A stretch of 26,648 bases of DNA from a virus. This document shows, one piece after another, positions 9,283 through 15,277 of this stretch. Position numbers and translations under genes: made by a program. Every line of letters begins with the position of its first letter. The stretch's first letter is position 1. The stretch is taken from positions 1 to 26,648 of the IMG/VR virus record IMGVR_UViG_3300037621_000109; one strand, given 5' to 3'. The notes beneath the pieces were generated by a model. It did no database searches, had not been told where the DNA came from, and saw only the letters and a list, made by a program, of their open reading frames with translations.

Positions 9283-9744
9283 ATGAAGAAGTTGAAGAAT
9301 ATAGATAGACGTCCGTATCAAGGTTTATATAAGCCAATGAACCCACAGAAATACAAAGGTAATGTCAACAATGTTATTTATCGTTCTAGTTGGGAGAAAC
9401 GTTTTATGCTTTATTGTGATAAAAATAGAGATGTTGTTGAGTGGGGTAGTGAGGAAATAGTAATATCTTATCGTTCAGTTGACAATAGACCTCATAGATA
9501 TTATCCTGATTTCTATATGAAAGTTAGACAATCAAATGGTACATTTGAAAGGTTTGTTGTAGAAATTAAACCTAAAAAACAAACACGTAAACCTAAAAGA
9601 CCTTTGAGAGAAACACGTACATATAAAAACGCATTGATAACTTATGAAAAGAATAGAAGAAAGTGGTCAACAGCGTATGCTTGGTGTATAAAACGAAACA
9701 TGAAGTTTCTAATACTGACCGAAGATCATCTTAAAACGTTTTAA
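9283..9744 (+). CDS. 4: Head completion protein gp4
   Basis: 153 aa from the ATG at 9283 (T4 gp4 is 150 aa). The frame is open further upstream, but that part is antisense to the 184-aa gene and reads as a hydrophobic shadow. The core is RSSWEKRFMLYCDKN, VEWGSEEIVISY, RYYPDFYMK and FVVEIKPKKQTRKP. The spacing of E38, D76, E94 and K96 gives a PD-(D/E)XK-like nuclease arrangement, known for the gp4 family (TnsA-related fold). gp4 acts with gp50/gp65-type proteins on filled heads before tail joining. The gene overlaps the ApaLI-like gene tail to tail by 14 bp, with no terminator visible. Confidence 0.88.
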   Translation: MKKLKNIDRRPYQGLYKPMNPQKYKGNVNNVIYRSSWEKRFMLYCDKNRDVVEWGSEEIVISYRSVDNRPHRYYPDFYMKVRQSNGTFERFVVEIKPKKQTRKPKRPLRETRTYKNALITYEKNRRKWSTAYAWCIKRNMKFLILTEDHLKTF

Positions 9745-10366
9745 AATCTTTTAATATCTGTAGTAAATCTATATTTGCCATTTGATTTATATATTCAAAT
9801 GCTTTATCTTGTGTGTAGGTCTTACCATGCTCATCATAGTAGTTTATAATTTTAGTTTGAGCTTTTAATGAGCGTTCTAGCTCTGGCATAAAAAACGTTA
9901 GTCTAATAGGTGTGTAACCTTGTTGAACAAGTAAATCTACTTTTCTAAATTCTTTGTTTGTGTGGTCGCCGTCTGTGCCTGCGTCACGCCATTTGACTTC
10001 GTATGCTAATTTCTTATCATGGTTTAGAATATCAATCTCAAATCTATTAGGGTGTGAACCAGGGTTGTCAATATATTCACTTTCACCACCTTCAATGTCT
10101 TGTATAATAAATTTAATTACTGTATCAAATATTCTTCCTGCGTTTGTACTTATTATTCTAGCTCTATTGTGATACATCTCCATTAGTTCTATTTCTTTTT
10201 TAGCGTAAAAGAGTTCATATATTAAATGATGATCGTTTGTAAAATCATTCATCTTATCCTGTGTATCATTAATGTTAGTCATAACTTTGCTATGATAATC
10301 GGAAATGATTTTATGAATATTGTTTTTGAAATAGTCTTTAGGTTTATCTAATTTTATAGGTAACAT
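9731..10366 (-). CDS. ApaLI-like type II restriction endonuclease homologue
   Basis: 211 aa. The core matches the ApaLI restriction-enzyme family (PF09499) as I recall it: HHLIYELFYAKKEIE, NRARIISTNAGRIFD (about residues 67-81), a SHPNRFEIDILN segment, LAYEVKWRDAGTDGDH (about 120-135), and GYTPIRLTFFMPE. The catalytic PD-(D/E)XK set is D112, E123 and K125. No methyltransferase gene is visible in the window. At least two GTGCAC sites (the ApaLI target, 3295-3300 and 3618-3623) exist in this same DNA, so either specificity differs, the phage DNA is modified, or the enzyme acts elsewhere. It lies between gp4 and gp32, outside the structural block. Confidence 0.8.
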   Translation of the reverse strand: MLPIKLDKPKDYFKNNIHKIISDYHSKVMTNINDTQDKMNDFTNDHHLIYELFYAKKEIELMEMYHNRARIISTNAGRIFDTVIKFIIQDIEGGESEYIDNPGSHPNRFEIDILNHDKKLAYEVKWRDAGTDGDHTNKEFRKVDLLVQQGYTPIRLTFFMPELERSLKAQTKIINYYDEHGKTYTQDKAFEYINQMANIDLLQILKDFKTF

Positions 10367-12792: not shown

Positions 12793-13391
12793 ACAAAAAT
12801 CTCTTTCATTATAAACTTACACTTTGTAAGATTAAACTTGATAAATGGTTTTAGTTTTTTTAACTTAAATGATTTTTCAGGCCAGATAACGTTTTCAGCA
12901 ATCTCTTTGTCCCAATTTTTAACAAACGACAGTATTTGATCCAAGATGATGAGTGTCTGTATTGATATTTTTTCAGATAGAAGTAGTCGTAGCAATCTTG
13001 GATGTTGCCCATTATGTACACTAAAGACATCATCAAACCGAATAGAATTATCATTAATAACATTATCAAGCAATACGCAATCGCTTCTAAAATTGTACGT
13101 AAATGATTGATTATACTTCTTCCACCTGCTGTAATAAGTTTCTCCATCTGCTCTAACTAAATTGCCTATCCATGTCTTTGAGTTATGGAAGAAATTGCAT
13201 ACAAAATATTCTAACATTTCTTCCTTATTGTATTTAGTAGTAAGTTTATGAAAAAAAAATCTATCATTACGTTTTAAAAATGTGTTAAATGATGAATTAA
13301 CTTTGGCATTGTGCCTGTAATAATCATAACTAGCGGAAGTGAAGTGTAGTTTAATAGCCAAATATAATGTATATGCCTCATAGCTGTTCAT
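12789..13391 (-). CDS. 59: gp59 helicase loader
   Basis: 200 aa (T4 gp59 is 217 aa). Matches T4 gp59 in order: YEAYTLYLAIKLHFTS (about residues 4-19), KRNDRFFFHKLTTKYNKEEM (about 40-59), YFVCNFFHNSKTWIGNLVRA, SVHNGQHPRLLRLLLSEKIS, and IQTLIILDQILSFVKNWDKE ending in the W-Pxx-S-x-K-L region. gp59 loads the gp41 replicative helicase onto gp32-covered forks. The gp33-gp59 gene neighbourhood is as in T4, and the overlap with gp33 (ATGA-type) supports coupled expression. Confidence 0.88.
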   Translation of the reverse strand: MNSYEAYTLYLAIKLHFTSASYDYYRHNAKVNSSFNTFLKRNDRFFFHKLTTKYNKEEMLEYFVCNFFHNSKTWIGNLVRADGETYYSRWKKYNQSFTYNFRSDCVLLDNVINDNSIRFDDVFSVHNGQHPRLLRLLLSEKISIQTLIILDQILSFVKNWDKEIAENVIWPEKSFKLKKLKPFIKFNLTKCKFIMKEIFV

Positions 13392-13609
13392 ATAGGTAAG
13401 ATCGCTGTGCTTGATCGTTCAACCAAGTTCAGCTTTTCTGCCTCTTCTTTAATTTTTTCCTTTAATGATTTGTTTATTAGTGGTCCTACAGAAGCTGTGT
13501 CTATATCATGTTCTTCACAATATTTGAGTACGGCATCCATATAGGACATTCTTTTCTCTTTGACTATCGCTTCTATTATTAATGCAAACTTTTTACTATT
13601 CATTAACAT
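13388..13609 (-). CDS. 33: Late transcription co-activator gp33
   Basis: 73 aa (T4 gp33 is 112 aa). Carries the core of the family: KKFALIIEAIVKEKRMSYMD (about residues 6-25), AVLKYCEEHDIDTASV, and a KSLKEKIKEEAEKLNLVE helix that in T4 binds the RNA polymerase beta flap. With gp55 and the sliding clamp it switches host polymerase to TATAAATA late promoters, several of which are present here. The gene is in the unit headed by the strong early promoter at 13850-13878, so the late switch is made early. Confidence 0.85.
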   Translation of the reverse strand: MLMNSKKFALIIEAIVKEKRMSYMDAVLKYCEEHDIDTASVGPLINKSLKEKIKEEAEKLNLVERSSTAILPI

Positions 13610-13824
13610 TAAAATTTTCTTACTATGTGTTTTCTTAATGCTCTTGTTAATTCTTCAATCTTATCTATGATTGATATTAGACTTGGGTCTGTAATAAAAT
13701 TCTTTTGTTCTTTTAACTTGTCGTATTCTTTTAGTGTTATTGTAACTGTTGATTGTTCATTTTCATAAGTTATATCTTGGTCATGCGAATCTCTATCTAT
13801 TTCATTGTCATTCATTATACTCAT
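13609..13824 (-). CDS. Small acidic coiled-coil protein (71 aa) before gp33
   Basis: First gene after promoter 13850-13878. N-terminus is Asp/Glu-rich; the C-terminal half is a likely coiled coil (LKEYDKLKEQKNFI, then IIDKIEELTRALRKHIVRKF). It holds the place of dsbA next to gene 33 in T4, but I see no convincing sequence similarity to DsbA. TAATG overlap couples it to gp33. Function unknown; a helper in the gp33/gp59 module is inferred from linkage. Confidence 0.7.
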   Translation of the reverse strand: MSIMNDNEIDRDSHDQDITYENEQSTVTITLKEYDKLKEQKNFITDPSLISIIDKIEELTRALRKHIVRKF

Positions 13825-13849: not shown

Positions 13850-13878
13850 ATTATATCTTAATATCAACGTTTTGTCAA
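13850..13878 (-). promoter_or_regulatory. Perfect-consensus early promoter (71-aa gene, gp33, gp59)
   Basis: Minus strand TTGACA (13878-13873), 17-bp spacer, TATAAT (13855-13850), exact sigma70 consensus at both boxes. Start of transcription would lie near 13843, about 20 nt before the ATG at 13824. It abuts the 3' end of the tmRNA. Confidence 0.88.
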
Positions 13879-14026
13879 GCCTGTTTCTGTTGCAAGGTAC
13901 AGGCAAACCCCGACTACCTAAGCAGCCATACGATAATCTATGTGATTGTCGTTTAAAGGTTAACAGTACGTTGTTAGCGATTTAACTCCAGTTAGGTTTA
14001 GTAGTAGTCGAATCTAACTCACCCCC
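13879..14026 (-). ncRNA. tmRNA coding piece with tag reading frame
   Basis: Begins GGGGGTGAG and carries GATTCGAC and the tag codons AAC GAC AAT CAC ATA GAT TAT CGT ATG GCT GCT TAG (11 codons before the stop). The frame is open two codons further upstream (CCT TTA, preceded by TAA), so the resume codon is one of these or AAC; none is the usual Ala or Gly. The tag ends MAA rather than the common LAA or VAA. The piece ends in a hairpin GCCTGT...ACAGGC (13904-13879). Confidence 0.85.
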
Positions 14027-14030
14027 AGCA

Positions 14031-14075
14031 TAACTACTCTATCCGTCTATAGACTATGCTTCGTAAGAGTAGTTA
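14031..14075 (-). repeat. Inverted repeat in the excised tmRNA spacer
   Basis: TAACTACTCT (14075-14066) and AGAGTAGTTA (14040-14031) are perfect 10-bp inverted repeats directly after the CCA and just before the 5' end of the coding piece. They extend the acceptor stem and would hold the precursor ends together for RNase P and 3' processing. The loop contains the palindrome GTCTATAGAC. Confidence 0.85.
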
Positions 14076-14140
14076 TGGTGGAGGTGGTGGGAATCGCACC
14101 CACGTCCTCACTAGTTATTGACTAACCTTCAACATTAAAT
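14076..14140 (-). ncRNA. tmRNA acceptor piece with T-arm and CCA
   Basis: Contains T-stem GTGGG/CCCAC around the 7-nt loop TGCGATT (14103-14087), acceptor strand CACCTCC, discriminator A and an encoded CCA (14078-14076). Its 5' part (GGTTAGT) pairs with the coding piece. The 5' end is not precisely known. Confidence 0.85.
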
Positions 14141-14142
14141 TC

Positions 14143-14517
14143 TTATGCTGGGTCACCAGGTTTTTCTAAATTAAAACTTCTATACATCATACAAGTTTCA
14201 TGTCCTGTTGGTGAAGTTATAGCAGCAACAGATTCATCGCCTTGCTTGTTGATATAGTATGCAACAAAATAGGATGGGTTGCCAGTTTCTTTAGCACCTT
14301 CTCTACCTAGTGATATGTTTTCTAATACAAATTCGTTATCAGAAAGATATCTTATTATCTCTGGTGATGTACCACAAACTACTGGTACGTGCATCCATCT
14401 AAAATCGTATTTTGTACTTTCCCAATCGTTAGTTTCTTCAGCAAATGATATACTAGACACTATTAATATAAAACTAACCAAGAAGGCAAGTAATAGATTT
14501 TCTTTTATTATTTTCAT
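14143..14517 (-). CDS. Secreted protein of unknown function (124 aa)
   Basis: A clear Sec signal peptide: Lys at the start, hydrophobic core LLLAFLVSFILIVSSISF, cleavage likely after SFA before EETNDW (about residue 26). The mature part has two cysteines (VVCGTSP and ETCMMY) that could form a periplasmic disulfide. Similar small exported proteins occur in marine phages but I cannot name a family. A TATAAATA late promoter (14564-14571) lies 46 nt upstream. The gene ends 3 nt before the tmRNA region, so the late transcript may also feed the tmRNA. Confidence 0.75.
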   Translation of the reverse strand: MKIIKENLLLAFLVSFILIVSSISFAEETNDWESTKYDFRWMHVPVVCGTSPEIIRYLSDNEFVLENISLGREGAKETGNPSYFVAYYINKQGDESVAAITSPTGHETCMMYRSFNLEKPGDPA

Positions 14518-14581: not shown

Positions 14582-15277
14582 CTAAATCTTCTTCTTGTCC
14601 ATGAAGTCTTTAGTGTGTTTGTAAAATAACTCTTGGTGTTCTTTGATTTTGTCTTCGGTATGTATCCATTCTTGTACAAAACCGTCTTCACACGTGGCCA
14701 ATATAACAGTTTGTTCTATCTTGCAATTTGGGTATAGCTCTTCATACATTTTTGCATATGCTGAGCATTGTAAGAAGTTAGCATAATTGTAATTAGCATC
14801 CCTTCTTTTTGTAGATGTCTTAAAGTCTACCACAGATAGTTTGCCTTTGTATTCAGCAATACAATCTACTTGACCTGCAACACCTATTTCTTTTGAGTAT
14901 AGGTATTCTTCTAGGCAATGTATGTTATCTAGTCTAGCAAGATATGGTTTCATTATTCTAAAAAGTCCTAGTGGTGTAACAGCAGTTATACCTACTGACT
15001 TCTCATCTTCATTATTTAAGTGATTCTCAATTAAGGTATGAGTTGTCTTACCTCTATTAATAGCAGTTGTAGAAATATAGTTAGCCATCTTCTCGCCAAC
15101 TGCATTTCGCCATGCCTGTAGACCTACTTGTTTTTCTGGTATTTGTCCTAGTATGGATGTAACGGAAGGCATATTAACACCATCAATAGTATAATATCTT
15201 ACACCATCTTGGTTTTTACCTTTCACACCTAAACTTTTAGGCAATACTTCTTCATTCAATTTAACATGTTTAAACAT
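14582..15277 (-). CDS. PD-(D/E)XK exonuclease (Cas4/RecB-like)
   Basis: 231 aa. Motifs of the PDDEXK_1 superfamily are in order: NRGKTTHTLIENHL (His80, Glu84), GQVDCIAEYKGKLSVVDFKT (about residues 135-154: D138, D151, K153) and FLQCSAYAKMY (Gln170, Tyr174), the QxxxY helix of RecB/Cas4 nucleases. It probably processes DNA ends in phage recombination or degrades host DNA. No Cys cluster for an iron-sulfur site is visible, so it is the simple phage form. It is the first gene after the consensus early promoter at 15306-15334. Confidence 0.82.
   Translation of the reverse strand: MFKHVKLNEEVLPKSLGVKGKNQDGVRYYTIDGVNMPSVTSILGQIPEKQVGLQAWRNAVGEKMANYISTTAINRGKTTHTLIENHLNNEDEKSVGITAVTPLGLFRIMKPYLARLDNIHCLEEYLYSKEIGVAGQVDCIAEYKGKLSVVDFKTSTKRRDANYNYANFLQCSAYAKMYEELYPNCKIEQTVILATCEDGFVQEWIHTEDKIKEHQELFYKHTKDFMDKKKI

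Follow-up and report, generated by a model that had tools for sequence, protein, structure and literature searches.

A circularly permuted tmRNA gene with a recoded tag at a variable locus of T4-like phages

The virus contig analysed here over its full length of 26,648 bases (hereafter, the window) carries on its minus strand, at approximately 14150-13879, a complete circularly permuted tmRNA gene. This gene is very probably a working phage ssrA of the alphaproteobacterial permuted type, the RNA of which would be processed, charged and, together with host partners, employed to rescue stalled ribosomes. This reading best accounts for the Rfam and ARAGORN matches, the covariation, the conserved tag frame, and a locus that is common to the phages Mosig and HTVC008M and to many virus contigs. 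Two observations are new. First, the small group of phages that includes the window recodes the tag to D...RMAA, unlike the tags of the sampled SAR11 bacteria; second, the locus between the exonuclease gene and gp33 shows a cassette-like pattern of alleles and clean empty sites. We found neither the recoding nor this pattern described in the consulted passages of PMC9004378 and PMC11915505.

Rfam and ARAGORN agree on the gene call. When the window was scanned with the whole of Rfam (cmscan), only two matches scored above the cut-offs, namely, RF04321 (tmRNA_permuted) at 14139-13918 (81.7 bits, cut-off 47, E 1.8e-14) and RF01849 (alpha_tmRNA) at 14174-13876 (70.5 bits, cut-off 50, E 1.4e-17). 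ARAGORN reports a permuted tmRNA at 14171-13827, minus strand, with the tag DNHIDYRMAA. These matches, along with the T4-like neighbours and the origin of the record from a virus contig, bear out the initial annotation, which had recognized a phage-borne, alpha-type permuted tmRNA from the letters of the sequence. The features of the locus, in the direction of transcription, are:

14582..15277, minus: phage exonuclease gene, the upstream marker of the locus (PHROG 298, E 1.2e-54)
14143..14517, minus: small protein with no assigned function, variable in relatives; its 3' end runs into the outermost 5' part of the precursor
13879..14150, minus: permuted tmRNA (ssrA) precursor (ARAGORN, RF04321, RF01849, covariation); outer ends approximate
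14076..14140, minus: acceptor piece (read directly; covariation)
14140-14134, 14127-14122 and 14113-14110, minus: 5' strands of the inter-piece helices, in the acceptor piece
14103-14087, minus: T-arm GUGGG-UGCGAUU-CCCAC, in the acceptor piece (read directly)
14086-14080, minus: 3' acceptor strand CACCUCC, in the acceptor piece
14079-14076, minus: encoded ACCA, in the acceptor piece
14027..14075, minus: 49-nt spacer with the 10-bp inverted repeat UAACUACUCU/AGAGUAGUUA (read directly; fold)
14007..14026, minus: 5' acceptor strand GGGGGUG and D-loop analogue GAUUCGAC; G3 pairs with U70 (alanine identity)
13961..13979, minus: pseudoknot before the tag, CG/CG plus UAACA/UGUUA (changes on both sides)
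13918..13950, minus: tag frame (ARAGORN; alignment with relatives)
13912..13927, minus: hairpin GGCUGC-UUAG-GUAGUC, its loop holding the stop codon (fold; like pairing readable in relatives)
13879..13910, minus: 3' H-type pseudoknot, GGGU/ACCU plus GCCUGU/ACAGGC (changes on both sides)
13850..13878, minus: sigma-70-type promoter TTGACA-17-TATAAT, perfect (12/12), directly after the tmRNA 3' end
13609..13824, minus: small protein with no assigned function between the tmRNA and gp33, also in HTVC008M
13388..13609, minus: gp33, late-transcription coactivator, the downstream marker of the locus (PF16805, 84.1 bits; PHROG 254)

Along the minus strand, 5' to 3', the acceptor piece precedes the coding piece. 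The 5' strands of the inter-piece helices, GGAC, the T-arm, and CACCUCC-ACCA are followed by the spacer and then by GGGGGUG, GAUUCGAC, the 3' strands of the inter-piece helices, a pseudoknot, the tag, the stop-codon hairpin, and a second pseudoknot that ends at 13879. Thus, the T-arm, acceptor stem, CCA, GAUUCGAC, inter-piece helix and tag frame listed in the initial annotation can all be read directly, as can its 49-nt spacer (14075-14027) with a perfect 10-bp inverted repeat; the strand, which was missing there, is the minus one. The acceptor stem, GGGGGUG/CACCUCC, contains the alanine-identity pair G3-U70, and the CCA is encoded. In the predicted fold, the inverted repeat of the spacer is continuous with the acceptor stem, forming one long hairpin (minimum free energy of -39.3 kcal/mol vs -22.4 in shuffles, z -5.8). 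The spacers in most of the close relatives differ from that of the window and are shorter, ~18-30 nt. The spacer is expected to be excised by tRNA-processing enzymes. A canonical T-loop of the UUCRANU type is usual in tmRNA but not strictly defining, and UGCGAUU of the window is non-canonical. This is no bar to membership because the accepted tmRNAs of the sampled SAR11 hosts deviate too (GGCAGUA, GGCGGUA); by the same token, a phage-specific T-loop signature, which we considered, was dropped.

To assess the pairing, we aligned 36 distinct phage homologues from the exonuclease-gp33 locus and scored a structure of 46 pairs read from a single member, the window. Standard pairs occupy 94.1% of the cells (81.2% in shuffles), and changes on both sides are found in 28 of the 46 pairs (16.8 in shuffles), including pairs in each of the two pseudoknots that flank the tag. 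The covariation score is 0.354, compared to 0.134 in shuffles and at most 0.056 with slid partners; relatedness inflates the shuffle comparison, but the slid controls preserve relatedness and yet score far lower. The G3-U70 pair is invariant (36/36), while two acceptor-stem pairs switch among the C-G, A-U and U-A types. Some of the homologues were fetched with a pattern that fixes the acceptor sequence; the acceptor alleles GGGGUGG, GGGGUAG and GGGGAUG, which were reached via neighbouring proteins, also retain G3-U70. As judged from these substitution patterns, the pairing of the tmRNA is maintained by selection.

The tag frame, GAC AAU CAC AUA GAU UAU CGU AUG GCU GCU UAG, encodes DNHIDYRMAA followed by a stop. 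Because GAC aligns with GCU or GCA of the relatives, we take Asp to be the resume codon. Accordingly, the leading N (AAC) of the initially proposed tag, NDNHIDYRMAA, lies one codon too early, whereas the rest of that peptide stands, and so does the remark that the resume codon is other than Ala or Gly. The A located four bases 5' of GAC corresponds in position to A86, described as setting the reading frame in the E. coli tmRNA (PMC2481249), and the C-terminus, MAA, is small and hydrophobic. The frame is kept across the relatives, with only in-frame length changes, as in L257, where the tag, DNESYRMAA, is one codon shorter. ARAGORN provides the fair tally of tags, with 59 of the 60 distinct phage tags ending in AA; our custom motif finder required the final AA, falsely extended some N-termini, and missed the tmRNAs of L059 and L077, both of which were recovered by Rfam. 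The sole tag lacking the final AA (L051, 10382-10443 region, EKKNDYKIIIGRPA) perhaps reflects a misread coding part. Very long tags of ~22-30 residues, where ten is usual, are predicted for the phage tmRNAs of L094, L079, L030, L028 and L036 (for example, ANDKALDNVSFVNFGEQKDVRLSEDFALAA). Among the distinct tags at the locus in the matches listed, D in the first position or R in the fourth from the end is confined to the small group of the window.

The tmRNA gene is surrounded by T4-like genes, including gp32, gp59 and gp33, as well as the phage exonuclease gene. Among named phages, Pelagibacter phage HTVC008M comes closest (gp32 DNA 81.4% identical) and, by sequence affinity, the window belongs to a T4-like ocean phage akin to phages of SAR11 bacteria. 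The same T4-like genome encodes an ApaLI-like restriction endonuclease (PF09499, 97.9 bits; 9731-10366, minus). For the host side, we sampled SAR11 genomes, that is, records titled Pelagibacter, fetched with a proteorhodopsin sequence that served as bait only. RF04321 was detected in 112 of the 147 genomes; the probable incompleteness of many of these genomes may explain the missing matches in the others. The tags in the 35 SAR11 loci that were read are ANDKFALAA, ANESYALAA, ANESYAIAA, ANEQFALAA and ANNKFALAA, all starting with Ala and ending in ALAA or AIAA, compared to Asp and RMAA in the window. The early suggestion that the tag may differ from that of the host is upheld for these sampled bacteria. 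The SAR11 tag ANESYALAA recurs unchanged in many phage relatives and ANEQFALAA in one, and the codons used are similar; these identical peptides suggest kinship.

If the gene is a working ssrA, the host tRNA-processing enzymes would cut the transcript into the acceptor and coding pieces, which would remain paired; the host alanyl-tRNA synthetase would charge the RNA through G3-U70; and the host SmpB would deliver it to ribosomes that have stalled on broken mRNA. The unfinished chain would then be extended by Ala and DNHIDYRMAA, with release of the ribosome at UAG. Searches of three large or complete records, those of HTVC008M, Mosig and a relative of 165 kb, found no SmpB, ClpP or SspB, so the tmRNA probably relies on partners supplied by the host. 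The likeliest benefit for the phage would be additional ribosome rescue during mRNA breakdown in the infected cell, and the proposal of the initial annotation, rescue on cleaved mRNA and steering of degradation, is reasonable. The changed end of the tag may also shift the degradation rate of tagged proteins: given that the terminal ALAA is described as the signal read by ClpX and ClpA (PMC3985003), altered degradation of proteins tagged with RMAA is plausible.

A refinement of the working-ssrA reading, rather than a challenge to it, is that the altered tag is the point, with D...RMAA acting as a poor degradation signal such that tagged proteins are spared or rerouted to another protease. The joint replacement, in one small group, of the host-like ending by RMAA and of the Ala resume codon by Asp speaks for this possibility, as does the role of ALAA as the ClpX/ClpA signal, but the tag retains both the Tyr and the terminal AA, and many relatives have MAA endings preceded by Ala, so that we regard it as tentative and rather doubtful.

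The locus itself is variable. Counting near copies, at least 170 loci have both the exonuclease gene and gp33, and in most of them a tmRNA lies between the two; this arrangement persists down to relatives whose exonuclease is only 39% identical. Among the 64 distinct close relatives in the matches listed (exonuclease at least 70% identical, window included), 37 carry one of several tmRNA alleles and 27 have none; these counts rest on the matches listed and are not frequencies in nature. With 27 of the 64 apparently lacking the gene, the tmRNA seems to be dispensable in this group. Samples of the empty loci were also negative for tmRNA in Rfam searches (for example, L127, L131, L148, L166, L168, L193 and L270). 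The empty sites are clean, in phages with ~93% identical flanks: almost directly after the stop codon of the upstream gene comes GCTTGACA, with which the sigma-70-type promoter starts, and in the window, the final tmRNA bases, AGGC, abut the TTGACA that is also seen in the empty relatives. The exonuclease tree of the 64 listed close relatives requires at least 11-12 state changes; in this tree, the window groups with 22 rows, 17 of them empty and 5 with other alleles, and its tmRNA groups with that of L261, which sits elsewhere in the exonuclease tree. On these comparisons, the tmRNA gene behaves as a cassette between the exonuclease gene and gp33. The promoter at 13850..13878 is retained where the tmRNA is missing and therefore probably drives the downstream small gene and gp33. 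Candidate promoters of the tmRNA itself are limited to weak nearby sites (9/12, at chance level). A 12/12 promoter-like site with TG before the second hexamer is located upstream of the exonuclease gene (15334-15306, minus), so that transcription of the tmRNA by read-through is possible; an 11/12 site, also with TG before the second hexamer, lies upstream of the M15 peptidase/endolysin gene (15959-15931, minus).

It is conceivable, although we would not expect it to be the case, that phages of this group exchange the alleles as a tag-switching cassette, encoding either the host tag or a recoded D...RMAA that rescues ribosomes but alters what becomes of the tagged proteins in a way that benefits the phage. 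Still less likely is that the captured tmRNA is a selfish or neutral passenger that is moved among phages by recombination and confers little benefit. Such a passenger would fit the clean empty sites and the changes of presence and allele over short time scales, but not the strong selection for pairing, the invariant G3-U70, the kept tag frame and the position that is preserved among distant relatives. A decoy role, in which the RNA would dampen host rescue by competing for SmpB or alanyl-tRNA synthetase with the tmRNA of the host, has a precedent in the tmRNA of phage DS6A, which is described as lacking a coding sequence (PMC11915505), and SmpB would have to be shared given that none was seen in the three large relatives; nevertheless, the gene of the window departs from that of DS6A in having a complete and conserved tag frame, stop codon and pseudoknots, making this scenario highly improbable. 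In the tmRNA tree, which is short and has many weakly supported forks, the SAR11 genes form a clade of their own, and the window falls with L261, L269, L016 and L257 into a separate phage clade; recent capture from the sampled hosts is thus unsupported. Although host tmRNA genes are described as frequent integration sites of genomic islands (PMC11915505), an origin as host DNA within the contig, or as a leftover of integration into a host ssrA, can be practically dismissed because the gene is complete, has T4-like genes on both sides, groups with phage tmRNAs outside the SAR11 clade, and occupies the same place in the isolates Mosig and HTVC008M, a synteny in complete phage genomes that already contradicts this origin.

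The tmRNA gene of the window belongs to a natural set: phages with near-identical flanks have no tmRNA or one of several versions, and relatives carry tags that either exactly match those of hosts or are recoded. Contrasts within this set bear on why phages retain a tmRNA, as they would set the gain from freeing ribosomes apart from that of choosing targets for degradation.

Two-piece phage tmRNAs are already known: the SsrA of Mosig is annotated, that of Melnitz is published, and HTVC008M has an unannotated copy. The two-piece tmRNA of the OM43 phage Melnitz and its relatives was described in 2022 (PMC9004378), where two-piece forms are given as 53 of 133 distinct phage tmRNA structures, 50 of the 53 coming from phages of marine or aquatic origin, and where a tmRNA is listed for 17 of 47 Melnitz-like contigs; a 2025 tmRNA database is described as containing 79 distinct phage sequences (PMC11915505). 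Compared by its description in PMC9004378, the Melnitz tmRNA resembles that of the window in being a two-piece alpha-type RNA that adjoins a transcription coactivator gene, but is described with a glutamine riboswitch. Rfam detects no such riboswitch in the window, and we rejected glutamine-riboswitch control of the tmRNA of the kind claimed for Melnitz. A glutamine riboswitch (57.3 bits) is present in L077 (1871-1823, minus) between the tmRNA, which ends ~300 nt upstream of it, and gp33; from this position, it is more likely to control a downstream gene than the tmRNA. Away from this locus, the Alcaligenes phage vB_Af_QDWS595, a schitovirus, carries an unannotated permuted tmRNA with the tag ANDNVYAAAA beside six tRNA genes (L004 1940-2316).

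The tmRNA of HTVC008M, a reference pelagiphage (KC465899, ~145120-145461; L002 7939-8280, plus), is unannotated in the GenBank record and shares the locus and gene order of the window, including the small protein before gp33, with 67.5% nucleotide identity at 63% query coverage; its tag is ANFNEYALAA, in contrast to DNHIDYRMAA. The SsrA of Mosig EXVC030M, annotated in GenBank, is likewise of the permuted two-piece alpha type, lies between the exonuclease gene and gp33, and keeps G3-U70, but its tag is GEDNFALAA, and it is immediately followed by gp33 and then thyX. This order in Mosig (L003 6274-7109), together with the ssrA described beside thyX in Candidatus Pelagibacter ubique (PMC2704228), is a possible hint of joint capture. 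The chromosomal ssrA of SAR11 (Pelagibacter) is of the same permuted alpha type as the window gene and differs in the T-loop and in the RF04321 score, which is 121-145 bits compared to 81.7 for the phage copy. The Caulobacter-type alphaproteobacterial permuted tmRNA (RF01849) shares with the window the permuted layout, the pseudoknots and G3-U70.
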